From Anaerolineaceae bacterium (GTDB taxonomy: Bacteria > Chloroflexota > Anaerolineae > Anaerolineales > Anaerolineaceae), in the NCBI GenBank assembly GCA_002702705.1, contig PABH01000004.1:1-64000 (forward strand): a stretch of 64,000 nt of DNA. The letters are read 5' to 3'. Below the pieces are notes generated by a model. That model did not search any database, had not been told where the DNA came from, and worked only from the letters and a program-made list of their open reading frames with translations. Position numbers and translations under genes: made by a program. Positions 29,773 through 63,197 of this stretch are shown in pieces (position 1 is the first letter of the stretch; each line of letters opens with the position of its first letter).

Positions 29773-29857
29773 GGAGGGATGGCCGAGTGGTTTAAGGCGC
29801 CTGTCTTGAAAACAGGTGTGGGGCAACTCACCGTGGGTTCGAATCCCTCTCCCTCCG
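29773..29857 (+). tRNA. tRNA-Ser (anticodon TGA)
   Basis: The acceptor stem GGAGGGA/TCCCTCC, D-arm GGCCGAGTGG, anticodon loop CTTGAAA in CTGTCTTGAAAACAGG, long variable arm and T-arm GGGTTCGAATCCC all fit a class II serine tRNA. CCA is not encoded. Confidence 0.95.
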
Positions 29858-29878
29858 CTGAAAATTTAATCCCTGCAT

Positions 29879-29971
29879 GGGGAGGTGCCAGAGTGGTTGA
29901 ATGGGGCCGCCTGCTAAGTGGTTGTCGGGTTTATAGCTCGACCGCGGGTTCGAATCCCGCCCTCCCCGCCA
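29879..29971 (+). tRNA. tRNA-Ser (anticodon GCT)
   Basis: The acceptor stem GGGGAGG/CCTCCCC, anticodon loop CTGCTAA, a long variable arm and T-arm CGGGTTCGAATCCCG fit tRNA-Ser. The 3' CCA is encoded. It is 21 nt after the TGA tRNA and shares its promoter. Confidence 0.95.
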
Positions 29972-32107: not shown

Positions 32108-32611
32108 CTATAAATTCCCTGCCCATAGGCGAATACGCTTCTCACATTCGAGTTTGGGCAAACGGGCACCCATCTTTAAAATCTTATCCAATGCGTGAGC
32201 TGCTTCTGTAAATCCTAATAATTCATAATGAATCATCTCATCCAATAACCACAATAAGCCATGCACCGTTATATTTTTAGATTCAGAAAAGCTTGCCAAG
32301 TTGCGGTCTCCGGTTATCAGTATCCCGGATCGTTGTCTTGCTAGTAGATATGCAGCAAAATCCGCTACGGCGATCACCCTCTTTGCTTGGCGTAATTCAT
32401 ATAATTCTAAAACTGATGAAGGTTCCAGCTCTAAAAATATTAATCCTTGTTTTTCTAACTCGGTTACATCAACACTTCGGATTTCTTGCCTTGCAAAATC
32501 TGATGCGCAAATTTGGTACGGAAGTCTAAAAACGATGTCTAATAGCATGCCATGATTAAGGTCGATCCAAATATTTGTATCCGTGATTAAGAGTAGCGAA
32601 TGGTCAGCCAT
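32108..32611 (-). CDS. PIN-domain-like protein, probable toxin of a TA pair
   Basis: The 167-residue protein has ITDTNIWIDL near the N-terminus (first conserved Asp of PIN nucleases), QEIRSVD in the middle and ILITGDRNLASFSE, with the later acidic site. PIN toxins cut RNA with metal bound by these Asp/Glu residues. It follows the XRE-ImmA/IrrE gene by 9 nt, an arrangement found in known toxin-antitoxin-like pairs. The toxin role is inferred from this pairing. Confidence 0.75.
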   Translation of the reverse strand: MADHSLLLITDTNIWIDLNHGMLLDIVFRLPYQICASDFARQEIRSVDVTELEKQGLIFLELEPSSVLELYELRQAKRVIAVADFAAYLLARQRSGILITGDRNLASFSESKNITVHGLLWLLDEMIHYELLGFTEAAHALDKILKMGARLPKLECEKRIRLWAGNL

Positions 32612-32620
32612 TTATAAAAA

Positions 32621-33628
32621 TTACCCCCAAGCTTTATCGAGTTTTGCTCCTAACAGTTCTTCTGCCCGAGAACGGGAAATATACTCCTCCGAAATTGCCC
32701 GGTAAATTAAACGATCTATACGGCGAGGGGTCTCATGTTGAATTGGCTTACCTGGTTCATTTTTCCGCCATCCTTGCACTGAAAATTGTCGAAATAATTG
32801 ATTAAAAGTGGTTTGATCGATAATCGCCAAGTCTCGTGCTCTGTAAATCCAAGCCTGCATACTTAAGCCATACTTGTGTTTTAAGAGATAGAGCTCACTT
32901 ACATCAAGATTGGTTCGCTTTTCGCCTAATTCACGCCTTGCGGTAATTGCCGGAACAAGGAATGCACCCGCAAAGCGGTTTGCAGATTTTTCTTCATTGA
33001 TATCGCCGCTGATTAATAAAACTAAATGGCCTAATTCATGTGCCAAATTAAAGCGCTGGCGGTCTCCTTCTAAACCTTTTCGGGTGACTATGATTTTATC
33101 TCCATCGAAAACAAAAGTACACGCATCAAACTTTTCAAAATTTTCAACAAGACCGACTTTTATACCCTTGTCTTCCAAGAGCTCCATTAAGTTTTCAATT
33201 GCATCTGAACCTAAATTCCATTCTTTGCGCAACTTTAAGGCAGCTTCTTCAATATCTTCAATGTCTTTAACTGGGTAATTAGGCAACAAGGGAACCCCCT
33301 TATTGTCTTCCATTAGTCCTTCTATTTCTAAATAACGTTCTAACCATTCCTGTACTTGAGCTTCGATGGCAAGCTGATCTTTAACTTTTAAAGTTGCATG
33401 TTTTCGGAAAGTTTTTAAGTTTATCTCGATAAAAGGAGGGCGGAAGAAAAACTCTACAGGCACATTTAAAGCTGAAGATAAGTGTAATAGAACACTGGAA
33501 CTGGGAGTATCCAGGTTCCGTTCATACTTAGAAATAGCCATCTTGCTAACTTGAACTTGCTGGGAAAGTGCCTCCTGGCTCATTCTTGACCATTTCCGTG
33601 CTAATTTAATCCGTTCACCAATCCCCAT
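32621..33628 (-). CDS. XRE regulator fused to ImmA/IrrE metallopeptidase
   Basis: The N-terminal HTH (IKLARKWSRMSQEALSQQV) is followed by a linker. A zinc peptidase domain with HELGH in FNLAHELGHLVLL and the downstream helix SANRFAGAFLVP comes next, as in ImmA/IrrE (COG2856). Such proteins act as repressor-antitoxins or cleave other repressors. GGAGG five bases before the ATG at 33628 sets the start, four codons inside the longest ORF. It leads an operon with the PIN protein. Confidence 0.9.
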   Translation of the reverse strand: MGIGERIKLARKWSRMSQEALSQQVQVSKMAISKYERNLDTPSSSVLLHLSSALNVPVEFFFRPPFIEINLKTFRKHATLKVKDQLAIEAQVQEWLERYLEIEGLMEDNKGVPLLPNYPVKDIEDIEEAALKLRKEWNLGSDAIENLMELLEDKGIKVGLVENFEKFDACTFVFDGDKIIVTRKGLEGDRQRFNLAHELGHLVLLISGDINEEKSANRFAGAFLVPAITARRELGEKRTNLDVSELYLLKHKYGLSMQAWIYRARDLAIIDQTTFNQLFRQFSVQGWRKNEPGKPIQHETPRRIDRLIYRAISEEYISRSRAEELLGAKLDKAWG

Positions 33629-33745
33629 AATTACCTCCAAAGATGAAACTTCTTAGTTTACATAATAACAAAATATTGTATTTTTGTAAACCGATTTACC
33701 GGTTATTAAATTAAATTGCTGGTTCAAATTCTTTTCTTGAAAAAC

Positions 33746-45093: not shown

Positions 45094-46293
45094 ATGAAAT
45101 TAGTTCGTCAACTGAATTATGACCTTAACAAACGTCCTTTTATGGTGATCTGGGAAACAACCCAGGCTTGTGATCTGGCCTGCAAACACTGTCGGGCTGA
45201 ATCACAACCAGAACATCACCCCAATGCCTTAACAACCTCACAGGCTAAAAGCCTAATTAATCAATTAAATGATTTTGGTAAACCGCATCCGATTTTAGTG
45301 CTTACTGGTGGTGATCCTTTTAAGCGAGACGATATTTTTGAATTAACCAAGTATGCTACCGATCTGGGTTTGCCGGTAGCTTTATCCCCATCCGGAACCC
45401 CCTTATTAACCACAGAGAATTTACAACGGGTTCGGCAATCGGGCTGTAAGGCCATTTCTTTAAGTTTAGATGGGTCAAATGCCGTCATTCATGATGAATT
45501 TCGTGGTGTGCCGGGTTCCTTCGATTGGACCGTGAATGGTTGGAAACAAGCCCAACAAGCAGGATTAAAAATTCAAATTAATACGACAGTCACCAAAGAC
45601 AATTTGTTTGATTTGCCGGAAATCTTCCGGTTGGTACATGAAATTGGTGCAATGACCTGGAGTTTGTTTTTCCTGGTACCAACCGGCCGCGCCAAACAAG
45701 AGGATGAAATTTCTCCCCTGGCTTATGAATCCGTGATGCACTTTTTATATGATGCCTCCAAGTTTATCAGCTTAAAGACGACGGAAGGCCATCATTACAA
45801 ACGGGTGGTTTTACAACGCTCTCTGTTGGAAGAAAAGGGATTGGATTGGTTGCCTTATTTTGAGGTGGACGAAGTTTATGCTCGTTTGTCTGCTCATTTA
45901 CAACAAGTGGTTCTTGAAAATCAGATCAGACGCCGTATGGATGACCGTATTCGCCGTACCCCGCTGCATATTAATGCGGCAGAAGGTTTTGTATTTGTAT
46001 CTTTATTAGGCGAGGTGTTTCCCAGCGGATATTTACCGATGAGTGCCGGAAATATAACCCAAACCTCCTTAATGGATATTTATCAGCACAGTGATTTGTT
46101 TGTCTCGTTAAGAAATAAAAAAGCATTACAGGGACGCTGCGGAATTTGTGAATACAACACGGTTTGTGGTGGTTCACGCTCCCGAGCCTATGCTGTCACA
46201 GGAGATGTATTGGCGGAAGAACCATTTTGTTCCTACCAACCTGGTAGTTTTCCCTTTGATCATAAAATTTTCGATAATGAACTAGCCGTCTAA
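45094..46293 (+). CDS. Radical SAM/SPASM protein, haem-cluster type (TIGR04053-like)
   Basis: The radical SAM cluster cysteines are Cys26, Cys30 and Cys33 in ACDLACKHC. The SAM-binding parts are LTGGDPFKRDD and LSPSGTPLL. The C-terminal SPASM cysteines lie in CGICEYNTVCGG and in PFCSYQP, for at least one further iron-sulphur cluster. It resembles AhbD and its paralogues, which are found beside haem genes. AhbD decarboxylates iron-coproporphyrin, but here a ChdC-type gene follows, so the exact step is uncertain. AGGTGG precedes the ATG. Confidence 0.85.
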   Translation: MKLVRQLNYDLNKRPFMVIWETTQACDLACKHCRAESQPEHHPNALTTSQAKSLINQLNDFGKPHPILVLTGGDPFKRDDIFELTKYATDLGLPVALSPSGTPLLTTENLQRVRQSGCKAISLSLDGSNAVIHDEFRGVPGSFDWTVNGWKQAQQAGLKIQINTTVTKDNLFDLPEIFRLVHEIGAMTWSLFFLVPTGRAKQEDEISPLAYESVMHFLYDASKFISLKTTEGHHYKRVVLQRSLLEEKGLDWLPYFEVDEVYARLSAHLQQVVLENQIRRRMDDRIRRTPLHINAAEGFVFVSLLGEVFPSGYLPMSAGNITQTSLMDIYQHSDLFVSLRNKKALQGRCGICEYNTVCGGSRSRAYAVTGDVLAEEPFCSYQPGSFPFDHKIFDNELAV

Positions 46294-46377
46294 CCCCAAA
46301 ATATTTTCCCCAATTGGGCCGGAATTTTCCTTCCGGAGTGTTTAACACGCCTACTACTCATTATAAAAGGAGATAAG

Positions 46378-47064
46378 ATGACTGAAAGAATATTATCCCA
46401 TTTTTGTTTTTTGCGATTTACCCCAGATTACTGGAACCTGCCTTCAAATGAACAAAAAAATTGGCACCAACAAATTTTAGTCGCATTATCCGAATCTGAT
46501 TTGGCCCAGACCCTCTATCAGGTATTTCCGGCTGCTGCTGATGTGGATGTATTGGTATGGTCCAGTATGTTGATTGGTGATAATGCAGAAATTGATGTTT
46601 ATTTTGATAAAACAGCGCGGTTTTTTAATCGGTTTCGATCTGTTTTAGAGCCGGTATCTGTGTATTGGGGTTTTACTCGCCCATCCGATTATGCTCGTGG
46701 TAAATCCAGTCAGGAAATTGAACCTTTTGACGGCCAACGCGAACCGTATTTAGTGGTTTATCCGTTTGTAAAGACCGCGGCCTGGTATCAATTGGGGCGT
46801 GACACCCGCCAGGGCATGATGAACGAACACATTCGGATTGGGCACCAGTATAAAGAAATTAAACAGCTTTTGTTATATTCATCTGGTTTACAAGATCAGG
46901 AATTTGTCGTCATTTACGAAATGGGCGACTTGCCCCAGTTTTCAGCATTGGTTACTGAACTGCGTGGTTCGGAAGCAAGACGTTACACGGAACGAGACAC
47001 CCCGCTTTATACGGCCATTTATCGTGACCCGCAAGAAATTTTAGCGCTTTTTGAGGCAGCATGA
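46378..47064 (+). CDS. chdC: Coproheme decarboxylase, ChdC/HemQ type
   Basis: The 228-residue chlorite-dismutase-fold protein has VYPFVKTAAWYQLGRDTRQG, with the conserved Tyr of HemQ, and then MNEHIRIGHQY, with the proximal haem His. GDLPQFSALVTELRGSEARR follows. In actinobacteria and firmicutes this enzyme converts coproheme to haem b. AAAGGAG precedes the ATG. It overlaps the next gene by 4 nt. The conserved residues favour decarboxylase over true chlorite dismutase. Confidence 0.88.
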   Translation: MTERILSHFCFLRFTPDYWNLPSNEQKNWHQQILVALSESDLAQTLYQVFPAAADVDVLVWSSMLIGDNAEIDVYFDKTARFFNRFRSVLEPVSVYWGFTRPSDYARGKSSQEIEPFDGQREPYLVVYPFVKTAAWYQLGRDTRQGMMNEHIRIGHQYKEIKQLLLYSSGLQDQEFVVIYEMGDLPQFSALVTELRGSEARRYTERDTPLYTAIYRDPQEILALFEAA

Positions 47065-47987
47065 AAAAAACAGCGATATTATTGATGGCCTATGGCGGGC
47101 CGGATAAATTAGAGGATGTAGCCCCATATTTGTTGGATGTGAGGGGTGGACGGCCAACGACTCCCGAATTAACGGAAGAAATCAAAGCGCGTTATGCGGC
47201 CATTGGTGGAAATTCTCCTTTACTTCCAATTACCCGGAAGGTAGCCCAGGCTTTGGAAAAAAAGTTGCAGGCAGATTATGGTGCAGAAATTAAAGTGTTT
47301 GTGGGTATGCGCCATTGGTTCCCTTATATCCGGGAAGCCGCAGCCCAAATTGTGGAACAGGGTTTTGAGCGAGTAATAACCTTGTGTATGACCCCATTTG
47401 ATTCGCGGTTTACTACGGAAGTGTATTTTCAACATTTAGACCAGGCACTTGCCCAGCACGGCCTTACAACCGAAATGGAAGTGGTCCGCATTCCGGGTTG
47501 GTATCAAGAACCAGGCTTTGCTGAAAGCCTGGTGCAAAAAGTAAGCCAGGCACTCTCCAGCTTTGAGAATGAACGGAAAGTACGTGTGTTTTTTAGTGCC
47601 CACAGTTTGCCAGCTGTGGTGCTGCAGGAAGGTGACCCCTATCCGCAGCAGTTTCAAGCTCTGGCAGAGATGGTAGCGCAAAAGGCGGGCTTATCCCCGC
47701 AAAACTGGCAAATCGCTTATCAGAGTGCAGGGGCAGGAAAAATTCCCTGGCTGGGGCCGGACCTTGAAGAAAAAGTGATTGAGTTAGGGGAAAAGGGCAT
47801 CCAGGATGTGCTGATTGCGCCAATCGGTTTTTTGTGTGATCACGTTGAGATTCTTTATGATTTGGACATTGAGCTGTTAGCAGAAACAGAGCATTTGGGG
47901 ATGAATATCAAACGAACCCAATCCTTAAACGCCGATCCACGATTTATCAGCTTTTTAGCAGAACGGATTACAAAGGAACTAATTTAA
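47061..47987 (+). CDS. cpfC: Ferrochelatase (coproporphyrin-type)
   Basis: The 308-residue enzyme inserts iron into the porphyrin. It begins LLMAYGGPDKLEDVAPYL. The metal-binding His is in VFFSAHSLP and the Glu in LCDHVEILYDLDIE, the family signatures. The following CgoX-type gene and preceding ChdC gene suggest the coproporphyrin-dependent pathway, so coproporphyrin III is the likely substrate. It is coupled to both neighbours by start/stop overlaps. Confidence 0.92.
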   Translation: MKKTAILLMAYGGPDKLEDVAPYLLDVRGGRPTTPELTEEIKARYAAIGGNSPLLPITRKVAQALEKKLQADYGAEIKVFVGMRHWFPYIREAAAQIVEQGFERVITLCMTPFDSRFTTEVYFQHLDQALAQHGLTTEMEVVRIPGWYQEPGFAESLVQKVSQALSSFENERKVRVFFSAHSLPAVVLQEGDPYPQQFQALAEMVAQKAGLSPQNWQIAYQSAGAGKIPWLGPDLEEKVIELGEKGIQDVLIAPIGFLCDHVEILYDLDIELLAETEHLGMNIKRTQSLNADPRFISFLAERITKELI

Positions 47988-49444
47988 TGGAAGGTACTAA
48001 AGAGAGTATTCGCAAACAGATTGTTGTTGTAGGTGCCGGGATTAGCGGACTTTCAGCAGCATATTATCTACAAAAAGCAGTTGCTGAACAAAATTTACAG
48101 GCTGATATTATCCTGGCGGAAGCAGGAGAACATATCGGTGGAAAGATCAAAACCGATTATGTTGAAGATTTTGTCATAGAAGGAGGCCCAGATTGTTTTT
48201 TACGTCAAAAACCATGGGCCTACCAGCTGGCCAAAGAACTTGGTATTGAAACAGGAGTGATCGGCACCAACGATGAACGCCGAAAAACTTTTGTCTTGGA
48301 TAAACAAAAATTGGTACCCCTGCCGGATGGGGTCATGTTAATCATTCCCACCAAAATCAAACCCTTTTTGTTTTCCCCCTTGTTTTCCTGGCCTGGCAAA
48401 CTGCGGATGGGTTTGGATTTGCTGATCCCAAAATTTGTTGGGGATGAAGATGAAAGCATTGGACAATTTGTACGCCGTCGTTTGGGCAAAGAAGCTCTGG
48501 AAAAACTGGCTGAACCGCTGCTTTCAGGCATTCATGTTTCCGATCCGGAAAAACAAAGTTTGTTGGCAACCTTTCCGCGTTTTCGTAATTTAGAGAAAAA
48601 ACACGGCAGTTTGATTATGGGCATGCTGGCTGCCAAACGACATCCAGCACCAGCGCCGTCCAGCAACGGGCAGCCAAAATCATTATTCCTGTCTTTTAAG
48701 GAGGGTATGGGTTATTTTGTTCAGCAGTTGGAACTGTCCCTCAATAAAACGACCATCTTAAAAAACAAAAAACTATTAAAACTGACACCCGGAGTACAGC
48801 ACCGTTATCAGTTAATTTTTGAAGACAAAACGGAAGTGCAGGCTGATGCTGTGGTGCTGGCTGTCCCTTCTTTTGCCGCTGCTGAAATTTTATCGGATTT
48901 TAGTGATGATTTATACAACGATTTATTAGCCATTCCTTATGTTTCCACAGCGACCATATCTTTGGCTTACCCCAAATCCGCTTTTCCCAAAGGGCTGGAA
49001 GGATTTGGTTTTTTGGTGCCGCGCACCGAAAACCGGCAAATTACGGCCTGTACCTGGTCTTCCATTAAATTTAACCACCGTGCCAATGAGGAACATATCT
49101 TGATGCGTTGTTTTATCGGTGGGCCGGGAAAAGAAGAACAGGTGGATTGGAATGATGCTGCTGTCAGGAACGTGATTCAATCTGAATTGAAGGATTTGCT
49201 GGGTATTACGGCAGCACCCCTGTTTATGAAAATTTATCGCTGGGAAAAAGCCAACCCACAGTACGAAGTGGGTCATCTCAATCTTGTTAAACAAATCAAA
49301 CAGCTTGTTTCAGAAAAAGCGCCTTATGTTTATTTGGCCGGCAGTGCGTTTGAAGGGGTCGGTATTCCGGATTGTGTCCGGCAGGGCAAAGAGAGCGCGT
49401 TAAGTTTGATAACGGCATTATTTGAAACGGAGGTTTTACAATGA
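47987..49444 (+). CDS. cgoX: Coproporphyrinogen III oxidase / protoporphyrinogen oxidase, FAD type
   Basis: The 485-residue protein has the FAD motif VVVGAGISGLSAAYYL, the family stretch EGGPDCFLRQKPWAYQLAKE, LAEPLLSGIHVSDP and a C-terminal YLAGSAFEGVGIPDCVRQG. The HemY/CgoX type oxidises the porphyrinogen with oxygen; the neighbours suggest coproporphyrinogen. It overlaps the substrate-binding gene by 4 nt, so transport and haem synthesis are one transcript. Confidence 0.93.
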   Translation: MEGTKESIRKQIVVVGAGISGLSAAYYLQKAVAEQNLQADIILAEAGEHIGGKIKTDYVEDFVIEGGPDCFLRQKPWAYQLAKELGIETGVIGTNDERRKTFVLDKQKLVPLPDGVMLIIPTKIKPFLFSPLFSWPGKLRMGLDLLIPKFVGDEDESIGQFVRRRLGKEALEKLAEPLLSGIHVSDPEKQSLLATFPRFRNLEKKHGSLIMGMLAAKRHPAPAPSSNGQPKSLFLSFKEGMGYFVQQLELSLNKTTILKNKKLLKLTPGVQHRYQLIFEDKTEVQADAVVLAVPSFAAAEILSDFSDDLYNDLLAIPYVSTATISLAYPKSAFPKGLEGFGFLVPRTENRQITACTWSSIKFNHRANEEHILMRCFIGGPGKEEQVDWNDAAVRNVIQSELKDLLGITAAPLFMKIYRWEKANPQYEVGHLNLVKQIKQLVSEKAPYVYLAGSAFEGVGIPDCVRQGKESALSLITALFETEVLQ

Positions 49445-56341: not shown

Positions 56342-56752
56342 ATGTATCAAAAGCTTACAATTGTAGGAAATTTAGGTCGTGATCCTGAAATGCGTTATAC
56401 CCCTTCCGGACAGGCTGTTACCAGTTTTCCGGTGGCTACGAATCGAACATATACCGGTTCGGATGGAAACCGGGTAAAAGAAACCACATGGTTTCGTATC
56501 TCTGCCTGGGGTAAACAAGCTGAAAACTGCAATAATTATTTAAAGAAAGGCAGTAAAGTCCTTATAGAAGGACGTCTTGTACCTGATACGACGACTGGTG
56601 GTCCCCGTGTCTTTAATCGGAATGATGGTACTGCCGGAGCAAGTTTTGAAGTTACTGCCACAACAGTACAGTTCCTGGATTCACGTCAGGATAGTGAAGG
56701 TTTAGGCGGTGGATCATCTGACATCGAAACCGATGATGAGATTCCGTTCTAA
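56342..56752 (+). CDS. ssb: Single-stranded DNA-binding protein
   Basis: The OB fold begins YQKLTIVGNLGRDPEMRYTP, with TWFRISAWGKQAENC in the middle. The acidic C-terminal tip DDEIPF recruits partner proteins. The length is 136 residues. GGAGGAATTGA precedes the ATG. It is followed by DUF3467, translin and Cas4-like genes at short spacing, so it may be part of a DNA-processing unit, although ssb also has housekeeping roles. Confidence 0.95.
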   Translation: MYQKLTIVGNLGRDPEMRYTPSGQAVTSFPVATNRTYTGSDGNRVKETTWFRISAWGKQAENCNNYLKKGSKVLIEGRLVPDTTTGGPRVFNRNDGTAGASFEVTATTVQFLDSRQDSEGLGGGSSDIETDDEIPF

Positions 56753-56772
56753 AAAAAATATAAGAAGAAAAT

Positions 56773-57141
56773 ATGAATGATAAACCAAAGGGGAAACCTG
56801 CGTTTCCCCCTTTAGTTATACCTGAAGACCTTGTACCCAAATACAGCAATTTAACTCGCATCAGTCATACACCATCCGAGATTATTCTGGATTTTTCCGC
56901 CTTATTACCCGGATCTAAACCGGAGGTTGTGTCGCGTGTTTTAATGTCACCTGTAGGCGCAAAGATGTTTTATCGCGCCTTGGGTGAGAATCTGGCCCGT
57001 TATGAAGCAAGTTATGGTTCTATTCAATTGCCAAACAGCAACACCGCTTTGGCACATAGCTTATTTAAAAATGTTCACCCGCCAGAAAGACCGGAAGACA
57101 AAGAACCACCGGATCCACAAGAACCGGAGAATGAGGAATAA
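56773..57141 (+). CDS. DUF3467 protein
   Basis: The 122-residue protein has LTRISHTPSEIILDFSALLP and VVSRVLMSPVGAKMFYRALG, as in DUF3467, a small family of unknown function. The tail is Pro/Glu-rich (ERPEDKEPPDPQEPENEE), like the acidic tail of neighbouring SSB. Its stop overlaps the translin start (TAATG), so the two are translationally coupled. Confidence 0.85.
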   Translation: MNDKPKGKPAFPPLVIPEDLVPKYSNLTRISHTPSEIILDFSALLPGSKPEVVSRVLMSPVGAKMFYRALGENLARYEASYGSIQLPNSNTALAHSLFKNVHPPERPEDKEPPDPQEPENEE

Positions 57142-57836
57142 TGGATCGTTTTTCAATTGTATCGGAATTTGTTCACGCAGAATTTGACGCCCGTAATCAA
57201 GCTCGGGACAAAGCCCTGGTGCAGGCTCGCCAGGTCATCCGTTTTGCCGCACAGACTATTCGTGCCATTCACCGCATGGATATTGAAGAAGCAAGCCATA
57301 AACTTGGAGAAGCAAAACAACTTGTTCGACAGCTAAGAAACGACCTGGCCGATTATCCCGAATTATTTTACGCAGGTTATACCCAAGATGCGTTTAAAGA
57401 ATATGTCGAAGCAGAGATCACTACAGCCTTAATCCTTAACCAGGAATTACCGCTGCCGTCTGAATTGGATGTGGAACCAGCCGCTTATTTAAATGGATTA
57501 GCGGAAGTTGGTGGTGAACTTCGCCGCCGCTGCCTGGATATTTTACGCAAAGGTTATTCTGACGAAGCGGAACGTTTGTTGGGTTTGATGGATGAAATTT
57601 ATGCTTTGTTAATCACGGTGGATTATCCTGATGCCCTCACTTATGGCCTGCGTCGCAAAACCGACCTGGCACGTGGCATTGTAGAACGTACCCGTGGTGA
57701 TATGACCATCAGCTTACGTGAACAACGGCTGACAAAAGCAATGAAAGAACTTTCTTTAAAATTAGATGTTGAATTTAATAACGGGCCGGAAACAAATTTG
57801 ACTGAGGAAGAGGATTCCGAACAGGAGAATGATTGA
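57141..57836 (+). CDS. Bacterial translin-family protein
   Basis: The 231-residue, all-helical protein follows the translin pattern: ARQVIRFAAQTIRAIHRMD near the N-terminus, YAGYTQDAFKEYVEAEI near residue 80, YLNGLAEVGGELRRRCLDI, and DALTYGLRRKTDLARGIVER towards the end. Eukaryotic translin forms octamers that bind RNA and single-stranded DNA, and with TRAX makes an RNA endonuclease. Archaeal and bacterial members exist but are little studied. It overlaps both neighbours, lying between DUF3467 and the split Cas4-like gene. Confidence 0.87.
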   Translation: MDRFSIVSEFVHAEFDARNQARDKALVQARQVIRFAAQTIRAIHRMDIEEASHKLGEAKQLVRQLRNDLADYPELFYAGYTQDAFKEYVEAEITTALILNQELPLPSELDVEPAAYLNGLAEVGGELRRRCLDILRKGYSDEAERLLGLMDEIYALLITVDYPDALTYGLRRKTDLARGIVERTRGDMTISLREQRLTKAMKELSLKLDVEFNNGPETNLTEEEDSEQEND

Positions 57837-58078
57837 AGAAGCGGACCATTCGCGCTTCCGAGATTGGCACGTACTTATATTGTAAACGAGCCTGGTGGTA
57901 TCAAAATCAGGGTGTAGAATCACAAAACCAACAGGAAATGGCTGGCGGATTTGCATACCATCAGCGGCATGGAAAACAAGTCCTGCGTGCTGTCTTATGG
58001 CGTGCTGCCGGATGGCTCTTTCTGTTGGTTGCCATTGCCGTATTGGCGGTGTGGTTAACCCAATCCGTTATAAATTAA
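57833..58078 (+). CDS. Cas4-like nuclease, N-terminal chain with membrane anchor
   Basis: The 81-residue protein starts RASEIGTYLYCKRAWWYQN, the pattern of the N-terminal cysteine region of Cas4/Dna2-type nucleases (Cys17). A TM segment near the end (AGWLFLLVAIAVLAVWLTQ) anchors it in the membrane. It has no nuclease core. Start TTG, overlapping the translin stop by 4 nt. It ends 10 nt before the second chain. The pair is probably one enzyme split by gene fission. Confidence 0.72.
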   Translation: MKKRTIRASEIGTYLYCKRAWWYQNQGVESQNQQEMAGGFAYHQRHGKQVLRAVLWRAAGWLFLLVAIAVLAVWLTQSVIN

Positions 58079-58088
58079 GGCGAATCCC

Positions 58089-58598
58089 ATGATTTTTTTG
58101 GTTCTTATTTTATTGGGATTGGCTTTGTGGATGCTGCTGAAAGGTAAATCGCTGCAGCAAGATGCCGGTTTACCTCAGGGACGCATTTTATACAGTGATC
58201 CGGAAATGGTTGGCCCTCCCCCCAAACCGTTTTTTGATGTGGAAACCCAGTTAACCGGCAAACCGGATTATTTGGTGATGGAAGGGGAATCCATAATCCC
58301 GGTAGAGGTGAAAAGCAGTTATGCCCCAGCCGAGCCCTACGCCGGGCATGTGTTTCAATTATTGGCTTATTGTTTGTTGGTGGAACGCGATACCGGCAAT
58401 CGACCACCCTATGGCATCCTGCGGTATCGCAACCGAACCTTTGCGATTGATTACACAGTCGAACAAGAAACTGCGCTGCTGAATTTGCTGGCAGAAATGC
58501 GAGAAGATTTTCGGATGGGTGAGTTGGAACGTTGTCATGATGATTCGGGGCGCTGTGCACGCTGTGGTTTTCGTGATATTTGTGATCAGCGATTGTAG
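58089..58598 (+). CDS. Cas4-like nuclease, catalytic chain with membrane anchor
   Basis: The 169-residue protein starts with a TM segment (IFLVLILLGLALWMLLKGK). The RecB-type PD-(D/E)XK core follows: Asp60 in GKPDYLV, Glu73 and Lys75 in PVEVKSS, and Gln90/Tyr94 in HVFQLLAY. The C-terminal cysteine set, Cys149, Cys156, Cys159 and Cys165 (RCARCGFRDIC), has the C-x2-C-x5-C spacing of the Cas4 iron-sulphur cluster. The fourth ligand would normally be the N-terminal Cys, here in the other chain. No cas1, cas2 or CRISPR array is seen. Confidence 0.83.
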   Translation: MIFLVLILLGLALWMLLKGKSLQQDAGLPQGRILYSDPEMVGPPPKPFFDVETQLTGKPDYLVMEGESIIPVEVKSSYAPAEPYAGHVFQLLAYCLLVERDTGNRPPYGILRYRNRTFAIDYTVEQETALLNLLAEMREDFRMGELERCHDDSGRCARCGFRDICDQRL

Positions 58599-58978: not shown

Positions 58979-58984
58979 GTGAAC

Positions 58985-60007
58985 ATGAACCCGATTCAAA
59001 ATACACAGGTAATTATTGTAGGCGCAGGCCCTACCGGTTTGGAACTGGGGGTAGCATTAAAACAAAAAAACATCCCTTTTTTGATCTTTGAAACAGGACA
59101 AATTGGACATACCATTTCCTGGTGGCCAAAGGATACCCGTTTTTTCAGCACATCCGAACGAATTGCTATGCCGGGTATTCCGCTGCATGTATTCGACCAG
59201 CAGCACCCCACAGGGGATCAATACCTGGCGTATTTGCGAGAAGTGGTACAGCAATTTGATTTAAAGATTAACAATTTTGAAAAAGTAACCCTTATTGAAA
59301 AACAAAACGATTTGTTCGTGGTACATACGGAAACCCGGCATGGACAATTTGTTTACCAGGCAAACCAGGTTGTTTTGGCAACAGGCGGTATGGCGAAACC
59401 ATGTAAGTTAAATATTCCCGGAGAAGATTTGCCGTTTGTAACTCATTACCTTGATGACCCCCACCTCTATTTCCAGCGTGAATTACTGGTCGTTGGTGGA
59501 CGCAACTCGGCTGTGGAATATGCGCTGCGTTGTTGGCGAGCGGGCGCGTCGGTGACCTTAAGTTACCGCAAAGAATCGATTGGCCCAAAATCCGTAAAAC
59601 CAGCCTTGATGCAAGATTTTGAAACCGTTGTGCGAGAAGGAAAAATTCGATTTATGCCTTCCACCATACCGGTGGAGATCACCCCAGACCAGGTGGTTTT
59701 ATCCGGTACGGATACGGATGGATACCCAGTTAAAGGAAAAAAACAAATTATTCACCCGGATGCGGTTTTATTATGTACCGGATACGTGGCGGATATGTCC
59801 TTATTTAAACAACTTGGTGTCACATTAACAGGTAAAGAACAAGCGCCCCAATTTAATGAAAACACGATGGAAACCAATGTGCCTGGTGTGTATGTCTTGG
59901 GGACGGCTGCGGGCGGCACACAGAAAAAATTTGAACATTTTATCGAGACTTCACATAAACATGTGCCAAAGATATTAAATGCGATTGAAAAAAGTATGGA
60001 AAATTAG
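58985..60007 (+). CDS. YpdA-like NAD(P)/FAD-dependent thiol reductase
   Basis: The protein has VIIVGAGPTGLELGVAL, then FETGQIGHTISWWP, TRFFSTSERIAMPG, a second nucleotide motif VVGGRNSAVEYALR, and a C-terminal GVYVLGTAAGGTQKKF. This is the YpdA (Bdr) family, which reduces bacillithiol disulphide. It lacks the CxxC of classical thioredoxin reductases, as is usual for YpdA. GGAG five bases before the ATG at 58985 favours it over GTG 58979. Whether this organism makes bacillithiol cannot be seen here. Confidence 0.85.
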   Translation: MNPIQNTQVIIVGAGPTGLELGVALKQKNIPFLIFETGQIGHTISWWPKDTRFFSTSERIAMPGIPLHVFDQQHPTGDQYLAYLREVVQQFDLKINNFEKVTLIEKQNDLFVVHTETRHGQFVYQANQVVLATGGMAKPCKLNIPGEDLPFVTHYLDDPHLYFQRELLVVGGRNSAVEYALRCWRAGASVTLSYRKESIGPKSVKPALMQDFETVVREGKIRFMPSTIPVEITPDQVVLSGTDTDGYPVKGKKQIIHPDAVLLCTGYVADMSLFKQLGVTLTGKEQAPQFNENTMETNVPGVYVLGTAAGGTQKKFEHFIETSHKHVPKILNAIEKSMEN

Positions 60008-60029: not shown

Positions 60030-60905
60030 ATGGTCACCCGACAGAACCCTCCCAAAACGTTTGCGATTGCCACCCACCCTGCGCAGCCCGAAGCAGCGGA
60101 AGAGGCAAGAACGATCGCAACACAATTAACCAAACTGGGCTTAAAACATGTGTTAAGTGCATCAATTTACGAACCACAACTTAAGCGTAAATTAAAATCT
60201 GGTGCAGCTGATTTTTTGGTTGCCCTGGGTGGGGATGGAACCATGCTGCGGGCTGGGCATTTGGTAGCGCCGTTGGGTGTGCCCGTGTTGGGAATTAATC
60301 GCGGGCGGTTTGGTTTTTTAATGGAAATCGGTCAAACCGGATGTAAAGAGCGGTTCCAGCAGTTGGTCAGCGGCGACTTTTGGATTGAAAATCGGATGAT
60401 GTTACACTGTGTCCATCGCCGCTTGGAAGAATTTTTAGGTGAATGGCATGTTCTAAACGATGTTGTCATTTCACGTGGCCAATATGTGCGTCCCATCCAA
60501 TTAACCGCCAGCTTGGATGGTTATTTGTTGGCTTCTTATAATGCCGATGCTTTGATTGTTTCTACTGCTACCGGCTCCACTGCTTATGCATTGGCTGCTG
60601 GTGGTCCAATCTTGCCGCCCGAATTACGTAATATTTTAATCGTACCGGTAGCACCCCATTTATCCGTGGATCGTTCGATTATCCTGTCGGAAGGGTCTAA
60701 GGTGGTGGTGAAGGTTAATACTTCCCATCAGGCTGTGTTAAGTGCCGATGGTCAGCCGCCGGTCATCTTAAAAGATGGTGATACCGTGGAAGCCAGTGCT
60801 GGGGAGTATTCGGTTTCTTTTATCCGTTTTGAAGACCCCGGCTATTTTTACCGAAACTTAAATCAATATATGGAGCGAAGTCCAATTACAGGTGGATTTG
60901 TATGA
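60030..60905 (+). CDS. nadK: NAD kinase
   Basis: It phosphorylates NAD to NADP. Its motifs are LVALGGDGTMLRAGH, VPVLGINRGRFGFLMEI and VSTATGSTAYALAAGGPI, all typical. The 291 residues are a normal length. It overlaps the next gene by 4 nt. Confidence 0.94.
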   Translation: MVTRQNPPKTFAIATHPAQPEAAEEARTIATQLTKLGLKHVLSASIYEPQLKRKLKSGAADFLVALGGDGTMLRAGHLVAPLGVPVLGINRGRFGFLMEIGQTGCKERFQQLVSGDFWIENRMMLHCVHRRLEEFLGEWHVLNDVVISRGQYVRPIQLTASLDGYLLASYNADALIVSTATGSTAYALAAGGPILPPELRNILIVPVAPHLSVDRSIILSEGSKVVVKVNTSHQAVLSADGQPPVILKDGDTVEASAGEYSVSFIRFEDPGYFYRNLNQYMERSPITGGFV

Positions 60906-61448: not shown

Positions 61449-63197
61449 ATGCTGACTGAACTGCGCATCACCAATTTTGCGATTATTGAAGACTTGGAAC
61501 TAACCTTTGCGGATGGTTTAACCACGTTTACGGGGGAAACCGGCGCTGGTAAATCGATAATTTTTGACGCTATTGAAGCACTGGTGGGTGCGCGTACCGA
61601 TATCACCAATATTCGTGCAGATGCGGATCGCGCTCAATTGGAAGCGGTGTTTCGGTTAGATGAACATAACCGAAATAGTGTTCATGCCATTTTGGAAGCA
61701 GAAGACCTGATGGATGACCCCGATTATGTCGTTTTGGGTCGTGAACTACGCCGCCAGGGGAGAACGGTAGCTCGTATCAATGGTATTACTGTAAATGTTG
61801 GTTTATTACGGCAAGTCGGTGCCTATCTGGTGGATATACATGGTCAATCGGAACATTTATCCTTATTGGATGTACGCCAACACCTCACATTATTAGATCG
61901 TTTTGCAACTTCGCAAGAAAATTTGCAGGCGTACCAGACAGTTTATTTTCAATTACGCCAGGTGTTAAAAGATTTAGCGGATTTACAAAAAGAAGAAGCC
62001 GATGCCCAGCAGCGGATTGATTTGTTAAAATTCCAGGTCGAAGAAATTGAATCAGCCAAGATCATACCCGATGAAGAAGAAGAGTTAAAGGAAGAACGCA
62101 ACCGTTTAGCGAACGCGGAAAATCTGGCAGAGCTGGGAAGAACAGCTTTTAATTTACTAGATGAAGGTGATGCCGAAGTTCCAGCAGTAAGTGATTTGTT
62201 GGGCGAAGTGGTTAATGCCTTAGAAGCCTTAAGTAAAATTGATCCTGCCCGCCAAAGTTTAACAGATCAGGTCGAAAGTATTTCAGTACAGGTGGAAGAA
62301 TTGACTCGTGATTTACGGGATTATCTGGAAGAAGTGGAACCCAACCCACGCCGTCTGGAACAACTGGAAGAGCGATTGGATCTTTTGCGGAATTTAAAAC
62401 GAAAATATGGCGGCAGTTTAGAAAGTGTTTTAGCACATGCCGAAAAGGCACGGCAAGATTTGGATAAAATTGAACATGCGGAAGAACGGATTGCTGATCT
62501 TAAAAAACAAGCCGCTGATCTGATCCGTCAGGTTGTGCAGCGAGGGGAGATTTTATCACAACAGCGCCAGGAAGCTGGCAAAAAATTAGGCAGTGCGGTG
62601 GAAAACGAATTGGCCGATTTGAGTATGGCTGGTGCTCGTTTCGAGGTAGGTTTATCCAAACAACCAGATTCAAAAGGAATAGCGCTTTCTACGGGGGAGC
62701 GGATTCGTTTTGATGAAAACGGCTTTGATCAGGTGGAGTTTTTAATTGCGCCGAACCCTGGTGAAGGATTGAAGCCAATGGTGAAAATTGCATCCGGTGG
62801 TGAAACCGCACGTTTAATGTTGGCCCTAAAGCGGGTATTGGCTCAAGCTGATGATATCCCCACGTTGATCTTTGATGAAATTGATCAGGGTATTGGGGGA
62901 CGGGTTGGTTACGTGGTTGGAGAAAAACTCTGGCAGTTAGGACGCCAACACCAGGTTCTGTGTGTTACCCATCTTCCTCAATTAGCCGCTTTTGGCGATC
63001 ATCATTATAAGGTTCGTAAGTCGATTGTGGATGGTAGAACGCAAACCATCGTTGAAGAAATGCAAGATAAGGAGCGGTTAATTGAGCTGGCACAAATGTT
63101 AGGTGTTGTTTCGGAAACCCACCTGACAGCTGCAGAAGAAACACTAAAAACAGCCCAGCAGCGCATCAGTGCCTATCAATTGTTTGGAAATCAATAG
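61449..63197 (+). CDS. recN: DNA repair protein RecN
   Basis: The SMC-like ATPase has Walker A TGETGAGKSIIFDAI, long coiled coils (about 160-370), and the signature and Walker B ASGGETARLMLALKR and PTLIFDEIDQGIGG, and H-loop CVTHLPQLAAF. RecN acts in double-strand break repair. The 582 residues are a normal length. TAGGG precedes the ATG. Confidence 0.95.
   Translation: MLTELRITNFAIIEDLELTFADGLTTFTGETGAGKSIIFDAIEALVGARTDITNIRADADRAQLEAVFRLDEHNRNSVHAILEAEDLMDDPDYVVLGRELRRQGRTVARINGITVNVGLLRQVGAYLVDIHGQSEHLSLLDVRQHLTLLDRFATSQENLQAYQTVYFQLRQVLKDLADLQKEEADAQQRIDLLKFQVEEIESAKIIPDEEEELKEERNRLANAENLAELGRTAFNLLDEGDAEVPAVSDLLGEVVNALEALSKIDPARQSLTDQVESISVQVEELTRDLRDYLEEVEPNPRRLEQLEERLDLLRNLKRKYGGSLESVLAHAEKARQDLDKIEHAEERIADLKKQAADLIRQVVQRGEILSQQRQEAGKKLGSAVENELADLSMAGARFEVGLSKQPDSKGIALSTGERIRFDENGFDQVEFLIAPNPGEGLKPMVKIASGGETARLMLALKRVLAQADDIPTLIFDEIDQGIGGRVGYVVGEKLWQLGRQHQVLCVTHLPQLAAFGDHHYKVRKSIVDGRTQTIVEEMQDKERLIELAQMLGVVSETHLTAAEETLKTAQQRISAYQLFGNQ

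Follow-up and report, generated by a model that had tools for sequence, protein, structure and literature searches.

What kind of enzyme is encoded where two consecutive bacterial genes each match a different part of a Cas4 nuclease, and why do they follow a gene for a translin-superfamily protein? The question is raised by a cluster of five genes in the Anaerolineaceae bacterium assembly GCA_002702705.1, at positions 56342-58598 of the window, that is, of the whole 64,000-nucleotide stretch analysed (contig PABH01000004.1, positions 1 to 64,000 of the forward strand). Five open reading frames (ORFs) of the + strand run there in the same direction and encode a single-stranded DNA-binding protein (SSB), a DUF3467 protein, a translin-superfamily protein of the TRAX type, and two polypeptides, N4 and C4, which correspond to the N-terminal and the C-terminal half of Cas4. 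The explanation that seems to account best for the whole, with a probability of roughly 0.55, is a Cas4-type nuclease tethered to the membrane, whose two parts would complete each other in trans and which, coupled to a TRAX-type RNase, would act in DNA maintenance. Within this explanation, the split Cas4-type architecture is well supported at the sequence level and very probable, resting on the split itself, on the way the residues are shared out, on the hydrophobic stretches, and on co-occurrence and linkage, and we infer the assembly in trans, the topology, the joint work with TRAX, and the maintenance role.

A Cas4-type nuclease divided between two polypeptides

N4 (57833..58078, + strand, 81 aa) and C4 (58089..58598, + strand, 169 aa) match different parts of the 180-position Cas4 profile TIGR00372, with N4 covering positions 2-47 and C4 positions 65-178 (E 2.3e-16 for C4) and neither half reaching the NCBIfam cas4 cut-off of 65 bits (C4 60.2, N4 22.9 bits). 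The same model is matched by all 34 aligned relatives of N4 (E up to 0.1) and by all 36 of C4 (E up to 0.001), and C4 also finds solved Cas4 chains among Protein Data Bank (PDB) profiles, namely 7mi4 (1.1e-7), 8d3l, 4r5q, and 4ic1. The PD-(D/E)XK motif set is present over the two chains, with the motif-I His on N4 (His43) and the motif-II Asp (Asp60), Glu-x-Lys (Glu73, Lys75), and Gln-x3-Tyr (Gln90, Tyr94) on C4; likewise, four cysteines of the Fe–S type are present, one N-terminal on N4 (Cys17) and three C-terminal on C4 (Cys156, Cys159, and Cys165).

These residues are strongly conserved. S9, C17, W21, G39, and H43 are invariant in the N4 alignment (34 rows), and in a census of the window and 80 loci of the class sample, which comprises 120 genomes from 48 families of the window organism's class, Cys17 and Trp21 were found in 60, Gly39 in 61, and His43 in 62 of 63 N4 sequences, while Gly57, Asp60, Glu73, and Lys75 were kept in all 81 C4 sequences and Gln90, Tyr94, Cys156, Cys159, and Cys165 in 80; the remainder in both halves are gaps. 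According to the accessible part of PMC4176176, the Cas4 protein Pcal_0546 has one N-terminal and three C-terminal Cys, binds metal through Asp and Glu, for which a conserved His is proposed as a further ligand, and requires residues of motif II, motif III, and QhXXY for activity. The key residues of N4 and C4 are the Cas4 residues described in that part for Pcal_0546/SSO0001 and, since their layout equals that of Pcal_0546, the split point lies between motif I and motif II. This layout suggests that one active site would be common to both chains. Thus, the split noted in the first-pass annotation is real, whereas its conservation, and the distribution of the predicted active site and the Fe–S ligands over both chains, had escaped that annotation.

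Predicted membrane helices

Both halves also carry a hydrophobic stretch at the side of the split. The predicted helix of N4 is C-terminal (58004..58063, + strand), with the N-terminus of the protein inside, and that of C4 is N-terminal (58089..58142, + strand), with the C-terminus inside; both rely on hydropathy and charge bias, and their limits were set by eye. A 19-residue segment with a mean hydropathy of at least 1.6 was found in 81/81 C4 N-termini and in 60/63 N4 sequences; two of the three N4 misses (L072 and L087) are clipped at the edge of the profile, with the hydrophobic stretch visible in the fuller sequence, and the third (L124) scores 1.45. Lys and Arg residues are distributed asymmetrically, with 185 before the N4 helix and 33 on its other side (63 sequences), and 17 before the C4 helix and 259 after it (81 sequences), where the upstream count may include non-coding letters. 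Following the positive-inside rule, by which the charged flank lies on the cytoplasmic side, this bias predicts the soluble parts of both N4 and C4 in the cytoplasm. The membrane-bound state suggested earlier is therefore in line with a predicted helix on each Cas4 piece.

The TRAX-type protein

The gene directly upstream of N4 (57141..57836, + strand) encodes a 231-aa predicted RNase whose nearest relatives of solved structure are AfTrax (3zc1, E 3.4e-26), NEQ131 (3.9e-9), and the TRAX subunit of C3PO (6.6e-5 to 0.04). It scores 24.4 bits against PF01997, below the cut-off of 25.9, and is missed in a whole-genome search with that family, and it matches NCBIfam PRK14562 with E 7.5e-76. The latter family is named 'haloacid dehalogenase superfamily protein' in NCBIfam, apparently a legacy misnomer that is carried into annotations. 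Four acidic positions (E87, E90, E122, and E126 in the window protein) are Glu in 48/48 sequences and, judged by these residues, the 'translin' is of the catalytic TRAX type. The first-pass annotation was thus right in placing a translin-superfamily gene directly before a Cas4-like nuclease and in the superfamily itself, but not in the type, which is TRAX rather than translin. Bacterial translin-superfamily proteins are already known; a 2012 study of eubacterial members is cited in the accessible part of PMC5424206.

Distribution and linkage of TRAX, N4, and C4

In the 120 class genomes, profile matches numbered 110 for TRAX, 91 for C4, and 91 for N4. Eight C4 matches judged to be ordinary Cas4, each less than 1 kb from a Cas1 match, were then dropped (G012:C701, G112:C104, G033:C5, G032:C124, G111:C5, G009:C11, G091:C89, and G058:C15), together with the one-chain protein of G107, the N4 match in G033:C5, and an N4 remnant in G079. 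After this, both halves were present in 88/120 genomes, one half in 2/120, and neither in 30/120 (Fisher p 6e-26, uncorrected for descent); the pair was found in 36/48 families. The single-half genomes are G044, with N4 only and 82% complete, and G043, with C4 only, the match running from base 303 of its contig. The remnant of G079 (G079:C119:45409-45477) is a short N4 match with an internal stop that directly follows TRAX; C4 has no match in that genome, and the two halves may have decayed jointly there.

Genes were considered near or linked within 3 kb, a limit chosen by the analyst, and the resulting class counts are lower bounds owing to contig breaks. Among the 88 two-half genomes, TRAX, N4, and C4 all lie within 3 kb in 48, on one strand and with C4 always downstream of TRAX; the rest comprise 12 with TRAX near N4 without C4, 16 with N4 near C4 without TRAX, 11 with none within 3 kb, and 1 without TRAX. 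N4 and C4 are more than 3 kb apart in 24/88, firmly so in 19, including the one-contig genome G010, with both halves kept, and in the other 5 (G076, G081, G096, G105, and G108) a contig break could hide the neighbour. N4 stands within 3 kb of TRAX in 60/87 genomes. The search of translin neighbourhoods proposed in the first-pass annotation thus found linkage of the translin-type gene with the Cas4-like pair in 29/36 pair-bearing families, so that co-occurrence, whose lack had been named as counting against the cluster, is observed, and the arrangement in 48/88 genomes rules out chance adjacency.

Two overlapping, and hence not independent, sets of loci gave the gene order. Loci were fetched for 80 of the 91 genomes in which C4 was matched; N4 adjoins C4 in 62/80, in a different frame each time, and TRAX is present in 47/80, the order always being TRAX, N4, C4. 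A scan of named genomes was made with the C4 profile, as the N4 profile is too poorly conserved; among the best 80 of 253 C4 loci, whose titles name Chloroflexota or groups of that phylum, except for 'uncultured bacterium' L202, N4 was found in 62; TRAX, N4, and C4 occurred together in 46 and the full set of five in 24, and no locus held a fusion. In a phylum sample of 201 genomes, the C4 profile matched 86 (ordinary Cas4 included), N4 55, and TRAX 112, and 42/43 genomes with an N4 match at or below 1.5e-10 also had a C4 match at or below 6.4e-21 (counted by eye). Co-divergence in 46 loci gave a partial correlation of 0.38 for N4 and C4 given TRAX (0/2000 permutations) and of 0.30 for N4 and TRAX given C4; N4, C4, and TRAX all move in step, without N4-C4 standing out, and this measure carries little weight.

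Relation to ordinary Cas4 and one-chain fusions

For comparison, 20 places with weaker C4-profile matches, drawn mostly from the phylum sample, were collected, and 17 were taken as ordinary Cas4. The N-half profile was found in the same chain in 12 of these 17, and no N-half match in 5 (L246-L250); 16/17 have no hydrophobic segment reaching 1.6 before motif II, and L254 has one of 1.69. In a tree of 72 rows (17 ordinary, 53 split, and 2 one-chain; L228 and L259 left out; root position not fixed), in which L257 (G127) was labelled split by its helix and has no N4 match, a branch (97/78) separates all the ordinary Cas4 from all the other rows. The one-chain rows, L229 (G139) and L239 (G107), are natural N-C fusions that fall among the split rows; L229 pairs firmly with L230 (100/100), and L239 sits on a long branch, its placement being unsure. 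The split rows L225-L227, from other families, attach nearest to ordinary Cas4. A single origin of the split, followed by re-fusion, fits this tree. L229 keeps both hydrophobic stretches, and one chain passing through two of them would fit a hairpin with the split in its outer turn; L239, from inside the class, has no helices.

CRISPR, defence, and competence

CRISPR genes were tested through Cas1 only, and no Cas1 was found in the window's own assembly. In the class, cas1 occurs in 51/88 pair-positive and 16/30 pair-negative genomes (p 0.68). A CRISPR role was rejected on both counts, the pair being as a rule independent of cas1, in agreement with the non-CRISPR role proposed when the lack of CRISPR genes was first noted. 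In PADLOC, the models matched are those of Cas4 for both halves and, for C4, those of the Cas4-Cas1 fusion and the DruK nuclease as well, with no match for TRAX or DUF3467; a known defence system was rejected, since nothing appeared beyond these models. In PHROGs, C4 matches phrog_1706 (CRISPR-associated, 1.1e-10) and phrog_35024, DUF3467 matches phrog_7919 (8e-5), and TRAX and N4 have no match. ComEC is not associated with the pair (82/88 vs 25/30, p 0.14), and a link with natural competence through ComEC was rejected on this ground.

Proposed mechanism and its rivals

In the proposed mechanism, N4 and C4 would be two halves of one Cas4-type nuclease, with RecB fold and Fe–S cluster, made as separate polypeptides, each anchored by one membrane helix and with both soluble parts at the cytoplasmic face. 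C4 would supply most of the site (Asp, Glu, Lys, Gln, Tyr, and three Cys), and pairing with N4, through its His and the first Cys, would complete the metal site and the Fe–S staple. The TRAX-type RNase, produced alongside this membrane-tethered nuclease, could strip RNA from the same substrates whose DNA ends or single strands the nuclease would trim, and the role would be chromosomal maintenance or repair beside SSB and RecN, and not CRISPR or phage defence. The maintenance role, taken by itself, is held only tentatively. It is the most likely among the functions considered, because ssb or recN neighbours occur in part of the genomes, the pair is spread over 36/48 families, and AddA-like proteins are commoner where the pair is absent (12/30 vs 13/88, p 0.008; an exploratory test with a threshold of 1e-30 chosen by the analyst, scoring up to 5 candidates in each genome). 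A more daring extension, in which a complex of the two-chain membrane Fe–S nuclease with TRAX processes RNA–DNA substrates such as R-loops or broken forks at the membrane and takes over AddAB-type end resection in many Chloroflexota, appears doubtful.

Several observations weigh against this mechanism. N4 alone matches solved Cas4 weakly, with 8d3l at E 0.11. According to the part of PMC4176176 available, Cys mutants of Pcal_0546 retained nuclease activity and, therefore, the Fe–S contribution of N4 may serve stability only. Outside the class, the motif-II Asp is lost in L229 and L230 and replaced by Glu in L226, and inside it motif III is altered in the one-chain L239, so that some members are probably inactive. 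As for the AddA contrast, no protein scores above the AddA model cut-off in any of the 120 class genomes, and the contrast, which is not corrected for descent, is weaker by family (8/29 vs 7/12, p 0.08). In 24/80 fetched loci, one gene cluster sits between N4 and C4, and the member checked (L088:1717-2451) is a YkuD L,D-transpeptidase; under stricter clustering this cluster is found in 1/80 named loci. A role purely in DNA repair leaves such a neighbour unaccounted for, and its presence may point to a setting at the cell wall or the membrane. Finally, TRAX occurs in 22/30 pair-less genomes, and in 27/87 N4 has no TRAX within 3 kb, some perhaps because of contig breaks; thus, TRAX has a life of its own.

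These last counts are what the strongest rival builds on, in which the split Cas4 works alone and TRAX, a neighbour by old operon habit, does RNA or tRNA work. It would also account for the excess of TRAX over N4 in the phylum sample (112/201 against 55/201), and the accessible part of PMC5424206 describes archaeal TRAX as sharing an ancestral operon with the tRNA enzyme SepRS. However, the linkage of N4 and TRAX in 29/36 families, the 12 genomes (8 of them firm) in which N4 stands beside TRAX without C4 within 3 kb, and the pair without TRAX in only 1/88 genomes speak against a bystander, which leaves this rival somewhat unlikely.

Less probable still, and indeed unlikely, is that the pair is a membrane-posted nuclease directed against incoming nucleic acid (phage, transforming DNA, or salvage), with TRAX cutting the invader's RNA. 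The predicted membrane location of both halves and the presence of a DNA nuclease and an RNA nuclease side by side would suit such a function, and uncharacterised defence or repair functions have been suggested for solo-Cas4 in the portion of PMC5704561 available. Nevertheless, the PADLOC matches are limited to Cas4, Cas4-Cas1 fusion, and DruK, with none for TRAX or DUF3467, and ComEC shows no association. Moreover, known defence islands are typically patchy, whereas the pair is broadly spread over 36/48 families and often stands between housekeeping genes.

Were C4 the enzyme and N4 a membrane regulator that merely resembles the Cas4 N-terminus, the weak match of N4 alone to solved Cas4 would be expected. 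This is very improbable, as 34/34 N4 relatives match the Cas4 model, the window N4 covers exactly the positions that C4 lacks, and L229 and L239 join both halves in Cas4 order. An origin of the two ORFs from a single Cas4 through gene breakage, sequencing error, or frameshift, as their 10-nt distance, their different frames, and the existence of single-chain Cas4 could suggest, is virtually impossible: the gene is split in 62/80 fetched and 62/80 named loci (overlapping sets) and fused in none, another gene stands between the halves in many loci, the halves are firmly apart in 19/88 genomes, and the key residues are conserved; the separated pairs refute a gene-error or frameshift origin.

Other genes of the cluster and of the window

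The cluster begins with the SSB gene (56342..56752, + strand; 136 aa, DDEIPF tip, PF00436 E 3.4e-30), followed by that of an uncharacterised DUF3467 protein (56773..57141, + strand; 122 aa, PF11950 E 1.4e-14). DUF3467 and TRAX overlap in TAATG, N4 has a TTG start and a 4-nt overlap with the TRAX gene, and C4 starts 10 nt after the end of N4 in a different frame, so that the five genes of one direction with short gaps or overlaps are as first described. As a five-gene unit, the cluster stands in part, with TRAX, N4, and C4 linked and SSB and DUF3467 looser members: DUF3467 is within 3 kb of TRAX in 32/120 genomes and 17/48 families, and SSB is one of 6 SSB-family matches in its own genome, 4 of them strong. 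With several SSB paralogues in this genome, the cluster copy may be specialised.

The conserved string often continues downstream with nadK, a B-box membrane protein, and recN. The nadK cluster is found in 35/80 and the recN cluster in 31/80 named C4 loci (clusters named by eye, within a 4 kb flank limit), and the window copies of NAD kinase (60030..60905, + strand; NCBIfam NAD kinase models) and of the DNA repair protein RecN (61449..63197, + strand; TIGR00634 E 1.5e-165) are confirmed by NCBIfam. Between C4 and nadK, positions 58979-60007 encode a YpdA-like putative bacillithiol disulfide reductase (291 bits, cut-off 339.9).

Elsewhere in the window, a heme-related cluster (45094-49444) comprises a radical SAM protein (TIGR04053), a weak HemQ-like match, ferrochelatase, and a protoporphyrinogen-oxidase-like protein (by eye). 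A regulator resembling the spr1629 repressor/antitoxin (32108-33640; 118.6 bits, cut-off 335) adjoins a PIN-like small protein (by eye, no NCBIfam match), a possible toxin–antitoxin pair. At gathering scores, Rfam found only two tRNAs in the window (29773-29968).

Significance

A split or membrane Cas4 was not found in the literature searched, which covers neither bioRxiv preprints nor most subscription papers, and the novelty of this form is provisional. In the same literature, neither translin together with bacteria and Cas4 nor a bacterial role for TRAX was found and, in the portions of the sources available, translin occurred with Chloroflexi only on another subject and DUF3467 only in a chlorhexidine/Porphyromonas gingivalis study. 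Many Chloroflexota carry a Cas4-type enzyme as two proteins with predicted membrane anchors, the predicted active site being divided between them, often beside a TRAX gene and, in some lineages, with a DNA-repair gene. The job of Cas4 outside CRISPR is open in the accessible part of the PMC5704561 survey, and a conserved split membrane form with TRAX, and often recN, gives a concrete way in, while the pair offers a genetic partner for bacterial TRAX. Moreover, drawing a metal site and Fe–S ligands from a pair of membrane proteins would hold a dangerous enzyme off until its halves meet, an uncommon arrangement.

Comparison with known systems

Among TRAX proteins, AfTrax of Archaeoglobus fulgidus (3ZC0/3ZC1), whose structures are reportedly those of Parizotto et al. 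2013, is the nearest solved relative; the acidic positions align, Glu122 of the window protein standing opposite an AfTrax Asp (Ala in 3zc0). The bacterial TRAX gene often adjoins a nuclease gene, unlike that of AfTrax. The TRAX of eukaryotic C3PO matches the window protein weakly in sequence and shows a similar acidic pattern, to which human Glu197 belongs in the accessible part of PMC9246224. In contrast to C3PO, class genomes have as a rule one translin-superfamily match, and a separate translin partner was not seen.

With Cas4 proteins (DUF83; Pcal_0546 4R5Q, SSO0001 4IC1, chains 7mi4 and 8d3l), N4 and C4 have in common the RecB motifs and the one plus three Cys. CRISPR-associated Cas4 stands beside cas1/cas2, and the N4/C4 pair occurs independently of cas1, with no Cas1 in the window's own assembly. 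The 2017 Cas4 survey (Hudaiberdiev et al. 2017, PMC5704561) reports, in the part available, solo-Cas4 in many Chloroflexi; that part of its main text holds no mention of a split or of translin, and 'membrane' appears once, in the name of a neighbour gene. N4 and C4 differ from Cas4 in being two polypeptides, cut between motif I and motif II, with a predicted membrane helix each and no dependence on cas1. Ordinary Cas4 is one polypeptide, whereas 0 fusions occur among the 62/80 fetched and 62/80 named loci, with L229 and L239 as the exceptions; the pair is, therefore, a variant and not an ordinary member of Cas4.

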